NCBI RefSeq assembly: GCF_000699445.3
Contig: NC_067202.1
Span: forward strand, 4,743,458-4,807,457
DNA: 64,000 nt
Direction: 5' to 3'
From: Schistosoma haematobium
Taxonomy: Eukaryota > Platyhelminthes > Trematoda > Strigeidida > Schistosomatidae
Within the stretch, counting starts at the first letter, position 1. Every line of letters begins with the position of its first letter. Positions 4,246 to 63,484 of this stretch are shown here, piece by piece. The notes under the pieces were generated by a model. It saw only the letters and a list, made by a program, of their open reading frames with translations. It did not search any database and was not told the origin of the DNA. Both the position numbers and the translations under genes were made by a program.

Positions 4246-4343
4246 GAAAATACTACAATTTTCATACTGATAAGTTTTTCATTTTTGTTTGTGATGTATA
4301 TACTTAATGGATTAATTTTTATTGTCATCAAATACTAACACAG

Positions 4344-4793
4344 GATGGTCGACTTCAAATCGGTGATGAATTGTTGGAGATTAATGGAGTTGTTTTAGTT
4401 AATGCAAACAATCCATTAAGTTTATTACGTTCTGTTCTACGAAAATTATCTAATACAACTGTAAATTACAATAAAAATTGTGATGATGATGATAATAATA
4501 TGACTACAACTTCAACAAGTGTAACAAATAGAACAACCACGACAATAACAACATCAACAACTGCTTATAGTTCTGTTGCTACTACTGATACTGCTACTAT
4601 TACTACTAGTACCACAAGTAATATTAATTCTATAACAGCTTCACCTACTAAGAAAAATGATCAGAATACAACTTCTAAGTCTACCTTCGACAAAGAAGAT
4701 TCAATGGAAATGTTAGATACAATTCAACCAAAAGTGGTAGATTTATTGATAGCTCGATTAACAAGGCATCGAAGATCTGCATCTGGACACACT
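4344..4793 (+). CDS. PAR-3/Bazooka-like PDZ scaffold, second half of the PDZ domain
   Basis: This phase-0 exon of 150 residues begins right after CACAG and ends before GTAAGT. It completes the PDZ fold with DGRLQIGDELLEINGVVL and the helix LSLLRSVLRKL. A Thr/Asn/Asp-rich insert of about 70 residues interrupts the domain. The last strand is KVVDLLIARLTRHRR, comparable to the IQLIVARR strand of PAR-3 PDZ3. Joining it to the exon ending at 1601 keeps the frame and gives GGAAHK-DGRLQIGDELLE, a typical PDZ core. The TTT(A)-free splice ends and domain continuity make this exon solid even though the inserts look like noise. Confidence 0.78.
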
Positions 4794-4959
4794 GTAAGTA
4801 TTCACAATTTATTTCAATATGTATATATAGTTTTTTCTGGTTAGTGTTCTTTGTAGCAAGGTTGTTCTTTACGGGATGGGGTTGTTGACCCCATGCTCAA
4901 TTCTTCTCCATTACTCGGGTTTGAGACCAGCAGTAACCCCAGAAAAGAAACGGGCGGAG

Positions 4960-14830: not shown

Positions 14831-15043
14831 GTGTTATATATTCAGTCGTCGCAATTGTTGTGCCGAAAAAAAAACGCTGATCACTTATACTCGGAACGAG
14901 GGATTTAGGCAATTCCCACAATCCGAAAGTAAGATTTATTAGCCCCAAACACTATGACAACGACGAATCACAATAGTCTAAAATACACTGGTTTATATAT
15001 TGATTGTACACCCATTTTGATTAATAATTAGGATTAAATCACA

Positions 15044-15333
15044 CATTGCAACATGATCGATAGCATTCGATCTGCACTAAGAAGGAATTGACACACATGA
15101 CATTGATCACCACCCAGTGATCAACCAATTGTGATTATATCTCAGTCCTACAGGAGGTCAGTCGCGCCTCGGATAGCTCAGTGTTAACATCTCTGACTGT
15201 GAAGCTGGGTGACACGAGATCGAATCCGCCAGGGAGCACCAGTTCCCTCAATATTACAGGTACACCTTGCTGACGAGTGCCAAGTAGCACGAAACCTAGG
15301 TTCAGGGTATCCTGGTGACTACCTCTAACCAAC
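15044..15333 (+). mobile_element. HH-SINE-2 insertion with 45 bp target duplication
   Basis: A 290 bp element lies between two 45 bp direct repeats (14,999-15,043 and 15,334-15,378) that differ at one base. These belong to the host repeat E and are a target-site duplication. Inside: a 5' region (GATCACCACCCAGTGATCA), a tRNA-like head with A-box (GGATAGCTCAGTG, about 15,171) and B-box (GAGATCGAATCC, about 15,214), a hammerhead (15,261-15,310) and a short end ACCTCTAACC. There is no coding sequence, so it must depend on another element's enzymes. The nearly identical duplications and intact ribozyme suggest a fairly recent insertion. Confidence 0.85.
15261..15310 (+). ncRNA. Hammerhead ribozyme (type I) of HH-SINE-2
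   Basis: All core positions are present. Helix I: ACACCTTG (15,262-15,269) pairs with CAGGGTAT (15,303-15,310), with one wobble and one mismatch. CUGACGA is at 15,270-15,276. Helix II is GUGC/GCAC with a six-base loop (15,277-15,290). GAAA is at 15,291-15,294. Helix III is the palindrome ACCUAGGU (15,294-15,301), and the cleavage triplet is GUU (15,300-15,302). Helix III leaves almost no loop, as in Sm-alpha ribozymes, which are thought to work best as dimers. Cleavage activity is inferred. Confidence 0.85.
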
Positions 15334-15769
15334 ATTGATTGTACACCCATTTTGATTAATAATTAGGATGAAATCACATATTCAGTTATAACAAATCACA
15401 GACTGCGAGCATAGTTCATGTCAATGGAATACAAGAATATCTCGTATATTATACAGAAGAAAATATCATACTGGGATAACAGTAACAAATACTACACTGA
15501 ATGATCGTCATGTTGAATCAAAACGGATGTTGAATGTTGAATAAAACTCATAATGAGTAAATCAATCGAAAATTGACTTTTCTTTCCATTATATCAGTTA
15601 CTAGAATAAAATGAAGTGTAAAATTGAATTATAATTGTTTAGTTGAAAGAAGTTTCTCAATTCTATCGGTTATTAATCTATGAATAGCCATGTTGAGAAT
15701 GTTTATATCTATATGTAGCTTTTTTGTTGAGAATACAGTGATTTATATAATACAAGCAAAGATCGATGG

Positions 15770-19224: not shown

Positions 19225-19510
19225 GGTTGTGGAGATGGTTAAGTTTAAGATGGTGGTTGGAGGTAGTCAACAGGAAACCCTGGATCTAGGTTTCGTGCTA
19301 CTTGCCATTCGTCAACAAGGTTTACCTGTAATCTTGAGGAAACTGGTGCTCCCTGACGGATTTGATCCTGTGTCAACATCGTGCACGCAATATTGAATCA
19401 CCTAAACTAGTGGTCACATTGCAACTTGGTCAATAGCATTCGATCTGCACTAAGAAGGACCTGACATGCATGACACTGATCACCACGCAGTGATCAATCA
19501 ATTGTGATTG
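19225..19510. repeat. HH-SINE-2, inverted then direct
   Basis: The left part (to about 19,375) is inverted: hammerhead and B-box complement, core TTGACGA. The right part (19,385-19,510) is the direct 5' region, including TAGTGGTCACATTGC and CACGCAGTGATCA. Confidence 0.7.
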
Positions 19511-22289: not shown

Positions 22290-24105
22290 AATTAATAATA
22301 GTTGAATTCATTAGTTGATTCAAGGTAGATAACCATAGAGAAGATGGAGGAATTGAATGTCTGTTTCGTCATACTATATGATTCCTTAGAAGTGCTCCAT
22401 TTTTGTTTAACTTCATCATAGACCTATTGATGGAAATAACATTCTCGTCGACTGAATTCTCGGGTATTGATCTCCTTCCAGGAGATCCACCTATCGACTC
22501 AAAATACGCAGATGATATAGTCCTGTTTGGTGAAGACGTTGATAAAATGCAGAGTCTTTTGGTAGCACTAAGCAACAATGCCAGAATGTTTGGAATGCGC
22601 TTCTCTCCCTCTAAATGCAAGTTGTTGCTTCAGGACTGGTCTGCGTTAACACCTGAACTAAGGATAGGGAGTGAAGTAGTCGAACGCGTCGACAACTTCA
22701 CTTATCTTGGAAGTCTGATCAGCCATAATGGGTTGGTGTCTGACGAAATCTGAGCACGGATTCGAAAAGCTCGTTTGGCTTTTGTCAACTTAAGTCACCT
22801 ATGACGAAGACGAGATATCCGTCTATCAATAAAAGGACGAGCATACTGCGTGGCAGTCCGTTCTGTTTTAATTTACGTCAGCGAAACATGGCCATTAAGA
22901 GTAGAAGACACTCGTAAGCTATTAGTATTTGAACACAGATGACTTAGAAATATTGCTGGCTTTTTCTGGGATCACCGGGTAAGTAATAGTGAGGTTCGAC
23001 GCAGGGTATTAGGGAATGATGATGGTAAATCAGTTGATGAGGTTGTGAATCTTCATCGACTGAGATGGTTGTGTCACATATTACGCATGCCCAACCACCA
23101 ATTACCACAGCGCCCAACGCTGAGTGGTATTGGAGACGAGTGGATGAAAGATAGAGGTGGCCAAACCAAAACGTGGCATCAGTGCTTGAAGTCACTAACT
23201 TCTAGTCTGAGCCATGTTATCAGATGCAGACTACTTGGTTGGGGTCCACATTACTATCGTAACCAATGGTTGGAGACTGTGTGTGACATGGCTCAGAATC
23301 GATCACAATGGTGTAGGTGTATACATTCTCTGTCTTCCCTTAAACTATGAGATTAAAATCACTTCATATCTTCCTTTCTACGAACTAATTCTTTCTTCCT
23401 GTACTATATCCTTATATGCAATCTTTCTTTTATATATTACCACCACTGAATTCACTACTTCTATGAATCTGGTGTTCATCTTGTTGTGTTAATGAAGTAT
23501 GGCAGCTAGAACCGATGCATATATGTACCTGGTCCTACGTTGTAGCTGACTGACTGACTGACTTAGAAGTGCTCATTCACGATCTCACACCAAAAAGGAC
23601 TTTAATCTAGGACCTTCGTTTTCTCTAGATCACTGAGTTGGTATTCAAAACTGTTAATGTCTAATTTGAAATATTCTATGAAAATGCATGATCTTTCATT
23701 ATTGCTTCATGTGCACACTAGTGGTTAATTTCCGGGTGGATTTCATGGAGTTCTAGTGAGAAACTGTGACCAATGGAGTTCAATTGTGTTTGTTGTAGAG
23801 GCAGTTACACACTGAATGGTGGACGGTGGTGCAATATCGTGGATTGATTGAAGCTAGACATTTACACCGTTGGATGCTGGCTCAGTGATTTAGAAGCTAA
23901 GCATTTGCTCGTAAGAACAAAAGTCCTGGGTTTAAGCCCCACGTGTGGGATCGTAGATGAACAATGCTGAGGAGTCTCTTACTAGACCGAAACACTTGTC
24001 CAGTGCTTCCAGCTTTTCTATGGTTGTCTAACTTCAACTGACTCATAAATTGGACTGTTAAATTACTAAAATCTGCACAAGAACCACTTCTGATAAATGA
24101 TATTA
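22290..24105. repeat. HH-SINE-1 head-to-head copy split by a non-LTR insertion
   Basis: The inverted half covers 22,290-22,397 and resumes at 23,562 to about 23,700 (tail, hammerhead, head, with A-box complement near 23,630). The direct half is 23,702-24,105 with all parts: 5' region, A-box (GGCTCAGTGATTTAG), B-box, hammerhead at 23,964-24,013 and tail. The direct hammerhead has CTGAGGA, GAAAC and GTC, with an extra C before GAAA, so it may still fold. Confidence 0.75.
22398..23561 (+). pseudogene. Non-LTR retrotransposon (second family), 5'-truncated, with 13 bp target duplication
   Basis: The 1.16 kb insert lies between perfect 13 bp repeats CTTAGAAGTGCTC (22,385-22,397 and 23,562-23,574). 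It starts just before the reverse transcriptase active site (SKYADDIVLF at 22,500) and keeps the thumb/C-terminal part: SPSKCKLLLQDW, NFTYLGSLIS, LRWLCHILRMPNHQLP, GGQTKTWHQC. The frame ends at 23,350 after several in-frame stops (first at about 22,751). The 3' UTR ends in a (TGAC)n tail. The clade is uncertain (RTE- or CR1-like). A second copy is at 35,255-35,965. Confidence 0.85.
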
Positions 24106-24835: not shown

Positions 24836-24968
24836 GAACAATTAAACAAATGCATGACCATGAAATACATCAAGAATAAAATATGAAAGTAAAAGTTGTC
24901 AATGTTGATAATCAATTAGAAAATAATCTTCGGTTTGAGAAAAGACTACACGTAATAGTCTCCAAAAG

Positions 24969-25837
24969 AGATGGTGGAGAAGATTTGTAGCTCAGGTGAA
25001 TGATTTTGAGGGAGTTTTGTTCTCTGAGCTGGATGGTTTGCTCGTGGAACTTTCATCGTTCTTCTGAACGACATCATCAGCACAAACTTCAGATAGAAGT
25101 GAAGTGTTCGAATTTCTCCATATGCGTTTCACAGCTTGTTCTGTCACCTCGACGTTGATTGGTTCTTATTGACCTTAACTTTGTCATTGTTTACTTCTTG
25201 GTTTTGGTTGTGTCTCCTATTGGTTTGATTTTTGTTCTTATATTTGTGTATAATTTTCCTGATTGGTTGATAAATTGTATCGATTTCAATGTGCTTGTTG
25301 ATTGCTGATTGACCTGAGTGCCAGGCTTCCAAAAGTTCTCTGGTGTTTTTGAAGTTTCCTCTGTCTAAGATTTCTACATTTTTCCAATCGAATGAGTGTC
25401 CGCACTTGTCTACGTGTATTGATATAAGTGAGGAAGTATCATGGCGTTTGACTGCTAACTGATGTTCATGTAAGCGAAGGTGAAGGGGGCGTCTGCTTTG
25501 TCCGATGTAGTGTTTGTCGCAGTTGGCACAATTTATTTTGTAGATGATGTTTGATTTGTCTTCCTTTGTTATTTCATTCTTTGGTTTGCATAGGATTGAT
25601 GGTAGTGATTTTGTTGGTTTGTGTGCCACACCTATCCCGAAGGTTTACAGCAGTCTCGTTTCTGTTTCTGATAAGAACCAATCAACGTCGAGATGTACAG
25701 AACAAGCTGTGAAACGCATATGGAGAAATTCGAACACTTCACTTCTATCTGAAGTTTGTGCTGATGATGTCGTTCAGAAGAACGATGAAAGTTCCACGAG
25801 CAAACCATCCAGCTCAGAGAACGAAACTCCATCAAAA
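24969..25837. mobile_element. Penelope-like element fragment with long inverted arms
   Basis: Two arms of about 165 bp (about 25,010-25,171 and 25,670-25,836) are inverted copies of each other. They flank a GIY-YIG reading frame on the minus strand. An imperfect 12 bp direct repeat (AGTCTCCAAAAG / AGACTCCAAAGG) at 24,957-24,968 and 25,838-25,849 looks like a target duplication. The minus-strand part has the element's 3' end at the left (CATCTC end, near 24,970). The reverse transcriptase is absent, so the copy is 5'-truncated and cannot move by itself. Confidence 0.8.
25144..25629 (-). pseudogene. Penelope-like element GIY-YIG endonuclease domain (fragment)
   Basis: This is the C-terminal part of a PLE protein. 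Visible are the linker AHKPTKSLPSILCKPKNE, then the GIY-YIG nuclease: IIYKINC at residues 28-34, a CxxC pair (CANC, 34-37), KHYIGQSRRPLHLRLHEH (39-56) with YIG at 41-43, and conserved Glu in TRELLEAWHS (about 98-101). The CxxC inside the GIY-YIG module is typical of PLEs. The frame continues upstream of the Met (GIGVAHKPT-like) to a stop, so the Met is not a true start. The reverse transcriptase that should precede it is missing. The last codons lie in the inverted arm. Confidence 0.85.
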
Positions 25838-25999
25838 AGACTCCAAAGGAATTACGTTATGTTACTTTTAAAGCAACATTATAAATAGGTGATCTATACA
25901 AAATCCACATATAACAAGAAAGACTGATCATTTACAGTTCTGGACATAAGTGGAAAGATCCAATCAAGTGATATATATGAATCAAAATCCACTCCACCG

Positions 26000-31781: not shown

Positions 31782-31946
31782 TTGATGGAGCTTTGTTCTT
31801 TGAGCTGGATGGCTTAGTCGTGGAGCTTTCATCGTTCTTCTGAACGACATCATGATGAAAGCTCCACGACCAAACCATCCAGCTCAGAGAACAAAACTCC
31901 ATCAAAATTATCCACCTGAGCTACAAATCTTCTCCACCATCTCAAA
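31782..31946. mobile_element. Palindromic mini-PLE with 12 bp target duplication
   Basis: The left arm (31,782-31,850) is a near-perfect inverted copy of the right arm (31,852-31,915), with essentially no loop. The right side runs on to the PLE 3' end (CTTCTCCACCATCTC). Direct repeats ACAGATAAGATT flank it (31,770-31,781 and 31,947-31,958). There is no coding sequence. Confidence 0.8.
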
Positions 31947-46194: not shown

Positions 46195-46510
46195 TTTGTG
46201 AATACAACACACAGCTTGATGAAAAAGCTTTGTGGTAACGTCCCAGACTGTGAAACTGGGCGATACCCATTCAATTTTACAAACAGATACCAGCTTCTTT
46301 TAAGATGTTAAGTAAGCCTTGTTGACGAGCGCCAAATAGCACGAGATCTAGATCCAAGTTATCCCACTGACTACCTCCAACTACCTCCAACATTAATAAC
46401 GCAAAATAGTGTCACTTAAATTAGTGGCCAGATTATAATTTGATCGATAGAATTTTATCACATGTAAAAGGAGCAGACATGCATGACATAAATCAATACA
46501 CGGTGATCAA
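46195..46510 (+). repeat. HH-SINE-2, hammerhead end running into the next unit's head
   Basis: tRNA-like head (46,225-46,275), hammerhead (TTGACGA, helix II GCGC..., ACGAGATC instead of ACGAAAC), then without a gap a second 5' region (CACTTAAATTAGTGGCCAG ... ACGGTGATCAATCA). This order is that of a tandem or circular template. Confidence 0.65.
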
Positions 46511-46618
46511 TCAGCTGAGAAATAGAGTATTTGAGAATTTGGATGGTAATATAAAAATTGAATTTAAAGTGATTGTAAATTCATACCTAATCAATAAACA
46601 GTAGTCACATTTGTTAGT

Positions 46619-57084: not shown

Positions 57085-57277
57085 CAAATACTCTTTCGCT
57101 GCATCTTAAGAAGTTTTTTTCTGTTTTACTTAAACTCTTCCTTGCACTTATCAAATCATTGAGTTTTATTCAAACTATCTTTCAAATTATCAGAATGGGT
57201 TTTGTGGAGATTTTTAGAAATTTCACAAGTTGAAATCATGAGCGAATTGAAGCTAGACCACCATAGGAAACCTGGAA

Positions 57278-57325
57278 GCACTGGACGGCCGTTTCGTCCT
57301 AGTACGGGACTCCTCAGCAGTGCGC
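57278..57325 (-). ncRNA. Hammerhead ribozyme of HH-SINE-1 (intact core)
   Basis: Minus strand order: helix I GCACTG / CAGTGC, core CTGAGGA, helix II GTCC...GGAC with a CGTACTA-type loop, GAAA, helix III as the palindrome ACGGCCGT, cleavage triplet GTC. Every conserved position of the type-I hammerhead is present. Helix III has no room for a stable loop, so two copies may need to pair. Confidence 0.88.
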
Positions 57326-57466
57326 ATCCACGAAACCGCCCCCGCGGGATTCGAACCCAGGACCTACTGGCTTCGCGCGCGAGCACTTAACCATTAGACC
57401 ACTGAGCCGGCGTCCAACGGTGTTAATGTCTAACTTCACTCAATCCACGGGGGCGGGTTCGTGGAT

Positions 57467-57516
57467 GCGCACTGCTGAGGAGTCCCATACTAGGACGAAA
57501 CGGCCGTTCAGTGCTT
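57467..57516 (+). ncRNA. Hammerhead ribozyme of HH-SINE-1 (plus copy, GUU triplet)
   Basis: GCACTG (57,469-57,474), CTGAGGA (57,475-57,481), helix II with GTCC/GGAC (57,482-57,496), GAAA (57,497-57,500), ACGGCCGT (57,500-57,507), triplet GTT, CAGTGC (57,509-57,514). GUU is allowed but usually slower than GUC. Confidence 0.85.
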
Positions 57517-57689
57517 CCAGGTTTTCCATGGTGGTCTAGCTTCAATTGGCTCATGATTTCAACTTGTGAAATATCTTTCAAATTATTAATCTGATTTTAT
57601 CAACTGAACTGTACTCATTTTATTCCTATCAATGTTTACTTGTTTCTAGCCGTTTGAACTGTTGTCACAATCAATGTTGTAAAATGTTC

Positions 57690-60248: not shown

Positions 60249-63200
60249 TACTTACTTACTTACTTACGCCTGTTACTCCCAATGGAGTATAGGCCCCCGA
60301 CCAGCATTCTCCAACCCACTCTGTCCTGGGCCTTCTTTTCTAGTTCCATCCAATTCTTGTTCATTTTTCTCATGTCTATCTCCATTTCCCGGCGTAATGT
60401 GTTCTTTGGTCTTCCTCTTTTCCTTTGACCTTCAGGATTCCATGTGAGGGCTTGTCTTGTGACGCAGTTGGGTGCTTCCCTCAATGTGTGTCCTATCCAC
60501 TTCCAGCGCTTCTTCCTGATTTCTTCCTCCACTGGGATCTGGTTTGTTCTCTCCCACAGTATGTTGTTGCTAATAGTGTCCGGCCAATGGATCTGAAGTG
60601 TTTTGTGTAGACAATTGTTAATAAACACCTGTATTTTCTGGATGATGGCTTTTGTAGTTCTCCAGGTTTCTGCCCTATACAGTAGAACTGTCTTGACATT
60701 TGTATTGAAAATCCTGACTTTGGTGTTGGTTGACAGTTGCTTTGAGCTCTAGATGTTCTTCAGTTGTAAATATGCTGCTCTTGCTTTGCCGATCCGCGCC
60801 TTCACATCTGCATCAGATCCACCCTGTTCGTCAATGATACTGCCCAAATACGTAATCGTTTTTACATATTCCAAATCTTCTCCGTCAATTGTGATTGGAT
60901 TGGTGCATTCTGTGTTGTATCGGAGAACCTCGCTTTTCCCTTTGTGTATATTGAGACCTATTGCTGCTGAGGCTGCTGCTACACTGGTCGTCTTCTCCTG
61001 CATTTGTTGTTACGTTTGGGATAGAAGGGCCAGATCATCTGCGAAGTCTAGATCATCCAACTGCATCTTAGATGTCCACTGTATCCCGCGCTTCCCTTCA
61101 GACGTTGACGTCTTCATGATCCAGTCGATCACCAGGAGAAAGAGAAAAGGTAAGAGTAAGCAACCTTGCCTAACACCGGTCTTCACTTTGAACGACTTTG
61201 TCAACTGTCCTCCATGCACGATTTTGCAGTGTAATCCATCATATGAGTTCTGTATGATATTGACTATCTTCTGAGGTACGCCGTAGTGTCGAAGAAGTTT
61301 CCATAGTGTTGTTCTGTCCACGCTATCAAATGCCTTTTCGTAGTCAATGAAGTTGATGTAGAGTGATGAATTCCATTCAATTGATTGTTCCACAATGATC
61401 CGTAGAGTTGCGATTTGGTCTGTACACGATCTATCCTTACGGAATCCTGTCTGTTGGTCACGAAGTTGGGCGTCTACGCAGTCCTTCATTCTGTTTAACA
61501 ATACCCTGTTGAAAACTTTTCCCGGTATTGAGAGAAGAGTGATGCCCCTGTAGTTATCACAGTTGCTGAGATCGCCTTTCTTCGGTATTTTGATCAGAAG
61601 TCCTTCTTTCCAGTCTGTTGGTACTTGTTCCTCATCCCAAATCTTATTGAAGAGAATGTGGAGTATCCTTGCAGCTGCCGCTACGTCTGCTTTTAGTGCC
61701 TCTGCTGGGATGTTGTCTGGTCCTGCTGTTTTGCCACTCTTGATTTGTCTGATGGCCATGCTGATTTCTTCAATTGTTGGTGGGCTAACATTGATTTGGA
61801 GGTCCGTGAGTGCTGCTTCGATGTTGGTTGGGTTCAGTGGAGCTGGTCGATTCAAGAGTTCTTTGAAGTGTTCTACCCACCTGTTTTGTTGCTCTTCAAT
61901 GTTGGTGATTACCTTGCCTTCTTTGCTTTTCACTGGTCGTTCTGGTTTGCGGCGATTTCCAGAGAGTTTCTTTGTCGTGTCATACAATTGTCTCATGTTT
62001 CCTTCTCTTGCAGCCTTTTCCGCCGTCGTTGCTAAATCTTCCACATATTTACGTTTGTCGGTTCTGATGCTCCTCTTCACTTGTTTGTTTATTTCCGTGT
62101 ATTCAGCTTGTGCCTTGGCTTTTTCTGCTCTTGTTCGACTGGTATTGATTGCTGCCTTCTTGTTCCTTCTTTCTTGAATCTTATCCAGTGTATCAACAGT
62201 GATCCATTCCTTGTGATGGTGCTTCTTATGACCCAGGACCTCATGACATGTTGAAGTGATTGCCTCTTTGATCCCCTTCCAGTTGCTCTCCACAGTAGTT
62301 CCTTCTCCATTGAGTAGATCATGAAAGGCCTGGAACTTGTTGCTGAGGTCTATCTTGAATTTGTGGAGTTTGTTAGTATCCTGGAGAAAGGCCGTATTGA
62401 ACTTTTGTGATATTGTCCGCCCCGTTGTCCAGTGTTTCTTGAGTTTCAATTTCATCTTGGCGACCAGTAAGTGATGATCTGATGCTATATCAGCTCCTCT
62501 CTTGGTTCTCACGTCCTCTATAGTCCTCCTGAACGTTTTGTTGATGCAAATATGGTCGATTTGGTTTTGCGTGGTGTGATCCGGTGAAGTCCATGTGGTT
62601 TTGTGTATGCGTTTATGTGGGAATATGGTGCCGCCTATGACCAGCTTATTGAAGGCACATAGATTTGCAAATCTCTCACCATTTTCGTTTCTTTCTCCCA
62701 GTCCGTGTCGTCCCATGATGTCTTCATATCCAGTGTTGTCCGTTCCAACCTTGGCGTTGAAATCTCCCATCAGAATAGTCAGGTCCTTTGTTGGGCACTT
62801 CTCGACTATTGACTGCAGCCTATTGTAGAATTGATCTTTAGCGTCTTCATTATAGTCGTTGGTAGGCGCATAGCATTGGATGATGTTCATTGAAATGCCC
62901 TCTTTCTTTGTTTTAAACGAGGCTTTGATGATCCTTGGTCCATGAGATTCCCATCCTATAAGTGCATTTTGCGCTTGTTTGGACAGCATCAATGCAACTC
63001 CTTGTGTATGTGGTGCATTTTCTTCTTCATGGCAGGAGTATAACAGGAGCTCTCCTGTAGTTAGTCGTTGTTGTCCAACTTGTGTCCAATGTGTTTCACT
63101 GATCCCAAGTACCTCTAGGTTGTATCTTCTCATTTCTGCAGCAATTTGGAAGGCTCTTCCGGTGTCCCATATTGTACGAACATTCCATGTACCTAAATAA

Positions 63201-63467
63201 ATGGTGGCTCTGGTTGTCAAAGGGGCACCGGCCTCGTAACTTTCGAGGGAATTCGGCTTTCATCATGAGGCGTCATAATTCTTCTAAATGAAGACCTTCT
63301 GACTCCCAGGGCAGAGTTTAAAAGGTTTGAATAATTTTTTCTGGTTGGCGTTTTTTTAGCGAGTTAGTTTTCTACGGGATGGGGACGCTAACCCCATGCC
63401 CAACCCTCCTCCTTTATCCGGGCTTGGGACCGGCAGTAGCCCCGGAGGGACTCCAGGCGGAGTTAAA
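60249..63467 (-). mobile_element. Full-length SR2-type (RTE clade) non-LTR retrotransposon
   Basis: Perfect 14 bp repeats AAAATGATTTAAAT flank the element (60,235-60,248 and 63,468-63,481), giving an element of 3,219 bp. On the minus strand it has a 5' UTR of about 200-250 bp, one long reading frame (endonuclease, reverse transcriptase, C-terminal domain), almost no 3' UTR and a tail of TAAG repeats at 60,249-60,267. RTE elements are about this long, have a single enzymatic frame and end in short tandem repeats. It is the likely source type for the many truncated 3' ends in the window. Confidence 0.93.
60260..63220 (-). pseudogene. SR2-type endonuclease/reverse transcriptase polyprotein, two nonsense codons
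   Basis: One frame of about 986 codons is interrupted only by TAA at 61,010-61,012 and TAG at 60,749-60,751, with no frameshift. N-terminal AP-like endonuclease: LGTWNVR (9-15), SETHW (41-45), MGDFN (151-155), IDHI (221-224), SDHHLLV (247-253). Reverse transcriptase: KKGDLSNCDNYRGITLL, FIDYEKAFDSVD (624-635), GVRQGC (682-687), active site FADDLALL (726-733). The C-terminal part has ITYLGSIIDEQGGSD and [23 protein letters not shown] has Leu where LLSP is usual, a third likely lesion. The first stop falls five residues after the active site, so only an endonuclease with a truncated polymerase could be made. The frame opens upstream of 63,220 without an in-frame ATG up to a TGA, so the start is uncertain. 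Confidence 0.93.
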
Positions 63468-63484
63468 AAAATGATTTAAATGGT

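Follow-up and report, generated by a model that had tools for sequence, protein, structure and literature searches.

A hammerhead-bearing insert in Schistosoma haematobium as a probable single-armed copy of a 344-bp retrozyme with Penelope-like junctions

SINE-like satellites carrying hammerhead ribozymes have been known in schistosomes since Sm-alpha (PMC2770079, PMC8490949), and S. mansoni is described as having four hammerhead satellite families with units of 332–428 bp, for one of which a target duplication is suspected (PMC8490949). For animal retrozymes in general, the published conjecture is that Penelope-like elements (PLEs) are a strong candidate for their mobilisation (PMC7229834), and PMC7761336 states that no conserved motif indicates the partner of a retrozyme. 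The PLEs have inverted pLTRs with a tail on one of them and, where duplications are present, these are 8–10 bp long (PMC3846280). As described in PMC11167929, a PLE protein cuts and extends both strands and starts from an AC-rich stem loop within the RNA; hammerhead cleavage is dispensable for the reaction in vitro, hammerhead mutants leaving insertion unchanged.

The elements described here resemble several PLEs, namely Perere-10 of S. mansoni (PMC8293314), Poseidon of Anolis (PMC11167929) and the Penelope of A. vaga (PMC3846280), which likewise occur as tandem and head-to-head copies and for which an optional tail at one end, short duplications, an AC-rich priming region and, in several, a hammerhead are described in the same sources. 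Unlike the PLEs, the retrozyme encodes no protein. Our analysis started from one insert in a 64-kb stretch of S. haematobium DNA (the window, by which we mean the whole of the stretch analysed). We consider it probable, on the evidence of sequence, that a 344-bp hammerhead retrozyme spreads here on the machinery of a co-resident PLE and that this insert is one of its single-armed copies. The locus is composed as follows.

14999–15043, + strand: left copy of the 45-bp target duplication, with one mismatch to the right copy
15044–15333, + strand: the insert, 290 bp, a single-armed copy running from ~343/1 to ~290–292 of the 344-bp unit (blastn against an array monomer of L009)
15334–15378, + strand: right copy of the 45-bp target duplication, with one mismatch to the left copy
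2165–2680, + strand: repE, the uninterrupted paralogue of the target repeat, in which the sequence of the duplication is present once (2347–2391)

With the copies of the duplication included, the left flank aligns to repE at 2272–2391 (91.7% identity) and the right flank at 2347–2451 (91.6%). When the flanks are joined and the 45 bp are counted once, they align through repE with gaps of just 1–2 bases. The first-pass annotation of this DNA had described a 290-bp insert between 45-bp direct repeats differing at one base, and a repeat E that would be continuous without the insert, as it is at 2165–2680; comparison of the two copies and the joined-flank alignment bear out both descriptions. Both 45-bp copies contain AGGAT where repE has AGAAT, which indicates that the duplication was made locally and was not taken from the repE copy. 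The edges of the insert are uncertain by about 2 bp per side, owing to CA and AT microhomology.

The internal features of the insert are the following.

15103–15124, + strand: perfect hairpin TTGATCAC-CACCCA-GTGATCAA, read from the sequence; in two-armed copies the P-type outer end (unit ~91) is situated 3' of this hairpin
15174–15184, + strand: A-box-like sequence, read from the sequence, with one G to T change against the array copy
15218–15226, + strand: B-box-like sequence GATCGAATC, read from the sequence
15264–15308, + strand: type I hammerhead (Rfam RF00163, 39.7 bits, gathering threshold 34) with the triplet GUU, the helix III palindrome ACCUAGGU and a predicted cleavage at 15302/15303, placed by hand

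The core of the hammerhead is complete, as had been noted at first reading and as the Rfam match confirms, though its cleavage triplet is GUU. The same Rfam model gives 46.4 bits on array copies of L013 and 39.6 bits on the dispersed copy L033. Among 66 hammerhead copies compared (up to four changes allowed; taken from the insert and L010–L041, with the arrays L011 and L013 contributing many) the triplet is GUC in most, and a palindromic helix III was flagged in 51 (ACCCGGGU, in place of the ACCUAGGU of the insert). A palindromic helix III would permit a dimeric ribozyme. The same inference is stated for metazoan hammerheads (PMC7761336). In the 344-bp family each unit carries a hammerhead, some copies of which are not intact; scans of viral and prokaryotic contigs gave no hammerhead matches. 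The hairpin stretch, whose loop is AC-rich, folds in its array copy with a z of −4.4. The A and B boxes are called tRNA-like from their likeness to the general consensus of such boxes. They begin 130 bp within the insert and not at its 5' end, the A box is altered, and ARAGORN reported no tRNA in the 64-kb window, the insert locus (L001), L009 or L033, so that the tRNA-like promoter head proposed for the element has to be given up.

A genome search with the insert returned 78 matches (40 of 3356 candidates were scored), many of them spaced by 344 bp. At L009 there are 27.5 tandem copies of a 344-bp unit at 99% identity, and arrays occur also at L011 and L013. The order within the arrays is P segment, tRNA-like boxes, hammerhead, S end and G segment, after which the unit repeats. 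Two more copies of the family were recognised in the window.

46226–46513, + strand: a degenerate old copy with the order tRNA-like part, hammerhead, G segment, P segment, which is permuted relative to the insert (by sequence comparison with it)
19254–19509, − strand: a two-armed (inverted) copy, with insert positions 167–288 and 1–93 on opposite strands, the G segment between them by eye, and flanks of 13 bp with one mismatch

These comparisons show the insert to be part of a retrozyme or satellite-like unit of 344 bp that is repeated in tandem. It is no 290-bp SINE: the phase of the unit is arbitrary and the boxes are internal, and "SINE with a tRNA head" therefore misdescribes the element; its mobility and its hammerhead, which the first-pass annotation had also put forward, stand. 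Like the metazoan non-LTR retrozymes, the family has a type I hammerhead, consists of short units, a few hundred bp long, in tandem, is non-coding and dispersed, and is flanked by duplications longer than 4 bp (PMC7229834). No frame of at least 120 aa (stop to stop) overlaps 15044–15333. The inserted unit does not begin with a tRNA-like head, by which a tRNA-derived SINE is recognised, and S arms elsewhere begin at many positions. Unlike the retrozymes described by Cervera and de la Pena 2020, the 344-bp unit has tRNA-like boxes; circular forms of it are putative.

Among the schistosome satellites, Sm-alpha, Sj-alpha, W25.2, W26.2, W27.2 and W36.2 are similar in having a type I hammerhead with a very short helix III and in occurring both dispersed and in arrays, in several schistosomes, and Sm-alpha also has a tRNA-like part (PMC8490949, PMC2770079). 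The unit length of 344 bp compares, by description, with 332–335 bp (W36.2) or 399–428 bp (PMC8490949). In S. haematobium the 344-bp unit may correspond to one of W25–W27. Six strings of the unit were not found in the literature searched. Window copies that we label Sm-alpha-like by assumption match the insert over 26–36 bp, at the hammerhead only, in a comparison made with these copies.

The junctions were measured in 45 copies. Thirty-three of the loci (L001 and L010–L041) comprise the insert, all other dispersed places of the genome search and two arrays, the L009 array being excluded from the junction counts; the further 12 (L082–L093) were drawn from 20 new dispersed places with preference for those without a listed inverted partner, so that the proportion of single-armed copies should not be read as a frequency. 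Twenty-nine copies are two-armed, with the arms head to head, and 16 are single-armed. In the RNA sense, the outer end of one kind of arm, or S end, falls at unit 292–310 in all 44 S-ended arms, mostly at 296–297 or 302–305. The other outer end, or P end, falls at unit 90–95 in 25 of the 28 P-ended arms, a few bases 3' of the perfect hairpin with the AC-rich loop. L024, which has a P end alone, lies outside the 44, and L018 and L041, which have no P end, lie outside the 28; in these last two of the 29 two-armed copies the second arm stops short of the P end. The positions of the inversion junction vary among the two-armed copies. At L032 550–569 the arm junction is a 20-bp palindrome of hammerhead letters, such as self-priming of the cDNA might leave; for Penelope, self-priming has been inferred from palindromes of this kind (PMC3846280).

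Target duplications were called clean at a score of at least 11, with 4 subtracted per mismatch. By this measure 22 of the 29 two-armed copies have clean duplications, all of 11–16 bp, as against 3 of the 16 single-armed copies (Fisher p 4e-4); among the latter, 13 have none, two have ordinary ones and one is the insert with its 45 bp. Over all 45 copies, clean duplications of 11–16 bp are present in 24, one of 45 bp in one, and nothing scoring at least 11 in 20, seven of these 20 being two-armed. A mismatched-flank control gave 3/135, L030 accounting for two of the three, and an earlier control on the 33 loci gave 3/99; the best repeat of L030 (21 bp, 3 mismatches) is inside the element and was not counted. 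The duplications of old copies may have been lost by decay. L086, which is 98.8% like the array, has no clean duplication. Taken family-wide, the anatomy is Penelope-like, with two fixed outer ends on head-to-head arms and duplications of about 8–16 bp; the insert by itself, having the S arm only and 45 bp, has neither the two-armed plan nor the short duplication.

The insert lacks about 52 bp of the 344-bp unit. Its S end, at unit 290–292, is at the margin of the range of the other copies (294–310), and what sets it apart is the 45-bp duplication together with the missing P arm. It had been called young, for which there is poor support: the two duplications differ at 1 of 45 bases, yet the best relatives of the element, among the 40 of 3356 candidates that were scored, reach 93% identity, and no close subfamily of it was found among them. 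Having no long frame for a reverse transcriptase and a GIY-YIG endonuclease, the insert is not itself a PLE and is at most a non-autonomous partner of one.

A PLE and a second hammerhead family with comparable junctions are present in the window.

24966–25838, − strand: PLE fragment, ends approximate, with a GIY-YIG-like ORF at 25144–25644, two arms placed head to head, a short end and a tail end, and no clean duplication
57191–57571, no strand assigned: a two-armed insertion of a second hammerhead family, with unequal ends and a perfect 15-bp duplication (57176–57190 / 57572–57586)

The frame letters YKI...C..HYIG in the former are presumably the PLE endonuclease motif; Pfam returned no match for the window PLE fragment, two short GIY-YIG-like frames having been run. 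A genome search for the PLE yielded 150 scored places of 5004 candidates. Its identity follows from the long frame in L044, which matches RVT_1, and from homologues that carry RVT_1, with GIY-YIG (PF01541) in 3 of the 120 listed of 1861; a search of solved structures with the PLE protein gave one match only, at E 0.51. Twenty PLE loci were picked as opposite-strand endonuclease pairs, so their two-armed state is by choice, whereas the kinds of end are not. Exactly one short and one tail end were found in 19 of the 20, the other being short/short; the short end reads ...CTCCACCAAAA and the tail end ...CTTCTCCACCATCTC in most. This asymmetry of the tail is as described for PLEs (PMC3846280, PMC11167929). 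The duplications, mostly of 10–16 bp, score at least 11 in 14/20 and at least 10 in 17/20, with 0/100 in the control at 11 or more, and in six more PLE copies, counted without a control, there are duplications of 11–14 bp in five and none that is clean in the window copy. A minimal hammerhead was read by eye in the PLE arm; Rfam reported none in the PLE arm (L060 or L049) at E 0.5. At L049 434–529 a PLE has inserted shortly after a hammerhead copy that scores 60.5 bits and that we take to be Sm-alpha-like.

In the self-comparison of the window, all five self-palindromes of at least 60 bp belong to hammerhead or PLE families. Perfect duplications of at least 12 bp flank two of the nine palindromes or pairs examined in the window, the insertion at 57191–57571 and a solo PLE at 31782–31946 (12 bp); the other seven have 8–13 bp with or without mismatches, no control being attached to these counts. 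Rfam matches to microRNAs below the gathering threshold, mir-750 and mir-44 at 31793–31894 on joined PLE arms and MIR6135 at L060 635–781, are probably artefacts of palindromes.

The retrozyme and the PLE have in common a plan with two arms, the presence of both kinds of end in each insertion, the length of the duplications and nine terminal letters, CCACCATCT, which end 2 bases from the S end of the retrozyme and 1 base from the tail end of the PLE. In the 2178 bases of L060 these nine letters are found once, at the tail end. The score of the shared motif was equalled by 51 of 5000 composition shuffles and by 10 of 2138 overlapping PLE windows (at two internal places), and none of 313 other windows of the unit scored as well against the PLE tail; taken alone, the motif would be modest evidence for the link. 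Nothing notable in common was seen between the P end of the retrozyme and the short end of the PLE. The two ends are about 130 nt apart along the retrozyme unit and about 36 nt apart in the PLE of this genome, so the likeness is one of plan and not of detail. The first-pass annotation had named a Penelope-like geometry as compatible with the length of the duplication. PLE insertions here have mostly 10–16 bp, and the connection therefore cannot rest on that length; what survives is the connection itself, on other grounds. Mobilisation by Penelope machinery is well supported by the junction anatomy, that is, by the two arms, the two fixed ends and the shared terminal motif. The conjecture about PLEs being already published (PMC7229834), it is the junction anatomy and the partner element that we propose from data; the literature searched, most subscription papers lying outside its scope, contains no report of PLE-type junctions for a retrozyme.

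We suggest the following course of events. The PLE reverse transcriptase-endonuclease would take up multimeric transcripts of the tandem copies, or circles derived from them, and would nick both target strands some 11–16 bp apart. Copying would begin inside the RNA, at the S site (unit ~292–310, after CCACCATCT) on one strand and at the P site (unit ~91, after the AC-rich hairpin) on the other, and the joining of the two cDNAs head to head would give the two-armed insertions. In our insert the S arm only would have been made, copying having stopped at unit ~343/1 at a stable fold and the end having been joined through a 2-bp microhomology to the other target strand. With no P arm the second break would be left unfixed, and the duplication, no longer bound to 11–16 bp, could by chance have reached 45 bp. 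That the 45-bp duplication reflects such an S-arm reaction, with a second break not placed by the enzyme, is an explanation drawn from one copy, and we hold it tentatively, as a nearly even call.

In the copied RNA the hammerhead whose cleavage site lies 31–51 nt upstream of the S end would be uncleaved or religated. All 44 S arms cross the cleavage site at this distance from their own end, which implies that the RNA was intact or religated there; this reading through agrees with the failure of hammerhead mutants to alter PLE insertion in vitro (PMC11167929). The hammerhead that follows upstream may determine the 5' end or cause stalling there. Of the 44 S-arm 5' ends, 13 fall no more than 16 nt from the next cleavage site upstream and only six extend further, in a length distribution whose short side is biased by queries that favour long arms, while its long side should not be. 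Since no S arm stops exactly at the cleavage site, stalling at the folded ribozyme could account for the pattern, as could cleavage followed by repair. The insert shares its start at unit 343–1, beside a strong fold (z −5.3), with three more single-armed copies, L020, L023 and L034. Three others at different places (L087, L088, L090) all begin 4–5 nt upstream of the cleavage site, inside helix III. The cleavage site as an exact 5' end was rejected, 0/44 S arms beginning there and these three lying 4–5 nt upstream. A distinct one-unit class that would prove a circular template was also set aside as weak, S-arm lengths from 291 to 398 being nearly continuous.

It is possible, although we would call this speculative, that schistosome hammerhead retrozymes are the "SINEs" of PLEs, made by double priming on uncleaved RNA, either multimeric or circular, at two internal sites that are fixed, with the ribozyme limiting the 5' end of the template; the single-armed copies of about one unit, L033, L039 and L027, could then be footprints of a circular template. 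If the junction evidence holds, the partner of a retrozyme is identified, in a genome with abundant PLE frames, and the double-priming model of PLEs becomes testable on very many short and easily aligned copies.

The best surviving alternative is a SINE moved by an RTE-type LINE of this genome, with inverted arms produced by ordinary twin priming. The window does contain, at 61010–63259, a LINE-like frame in which letters of an endonuclease and of a reverse transcriptase can be read and which we assume to be of RTE type; LINE duplications can be 10–20 bp long, and twin priming produces inversions. The outer end of an arm inverted by twin priming is, however, variable, while here 25 of the 28 P-ended arms have theirs at unit 90–95. 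No LINE family is represented among the five self-palindromes of the window, to which the LINE comparison is confined; the tRNA-like boxes are not 5'-terminal, there is no A-rich or simple-repeat tail at the S ends inspected, and it is the PLE of this genome that has the two-ended plan. We therefore regard mobilisation by a LINE as improbable. Still less probable is the movement of satellite fragments by recombination or as extrachromosomal circles, without retrotransposition: the tandem arrays, and the lack of a clean duplication in 13 of the 16 single-armed copies, would suit it, but the fixed ends and the 11–16 bp duplications of 22 of the 29 two-armed copies speak against it, and the 45-bp duplication looks like the scar of a staggered break. 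A small long-duplication subfamily may exist among the candidates beyond the 40 of 3356 that were scored. A distinct SINE family regularly giving duplications of 30–50 bp, as the first-pass annotation had it, has in its favour the single 45-bp duplication and is very improbable, being refuted for the copies examined by a clean duplication above 16 bp in 1 of 45 and by the outcome named in advance as contrary to it, other copies with short duplications (24) or none (20).

Some minor observations concern other parts of the window. The frames at 1182–1670 and 4308–4844 look by eye like PDZ-domain exons, presumably of a host gene. Rfam places mir-3492 at 22694–22771 on the − strand (56.7 bits), the opposite strand being part of an open frame (22382–22753) with a reverse transcriptase match, and the mir-3492 family may be retrotransposon sequence. 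A Twister-P1 ribozyme (63400–63469, − strand, 69.5 bits) lies just upstream of the 749-aa LINE-like frame at 61010–63259 (− strand), a position consistent with the twister ribozymes reported at RTE 5' ends (PMC7761336).
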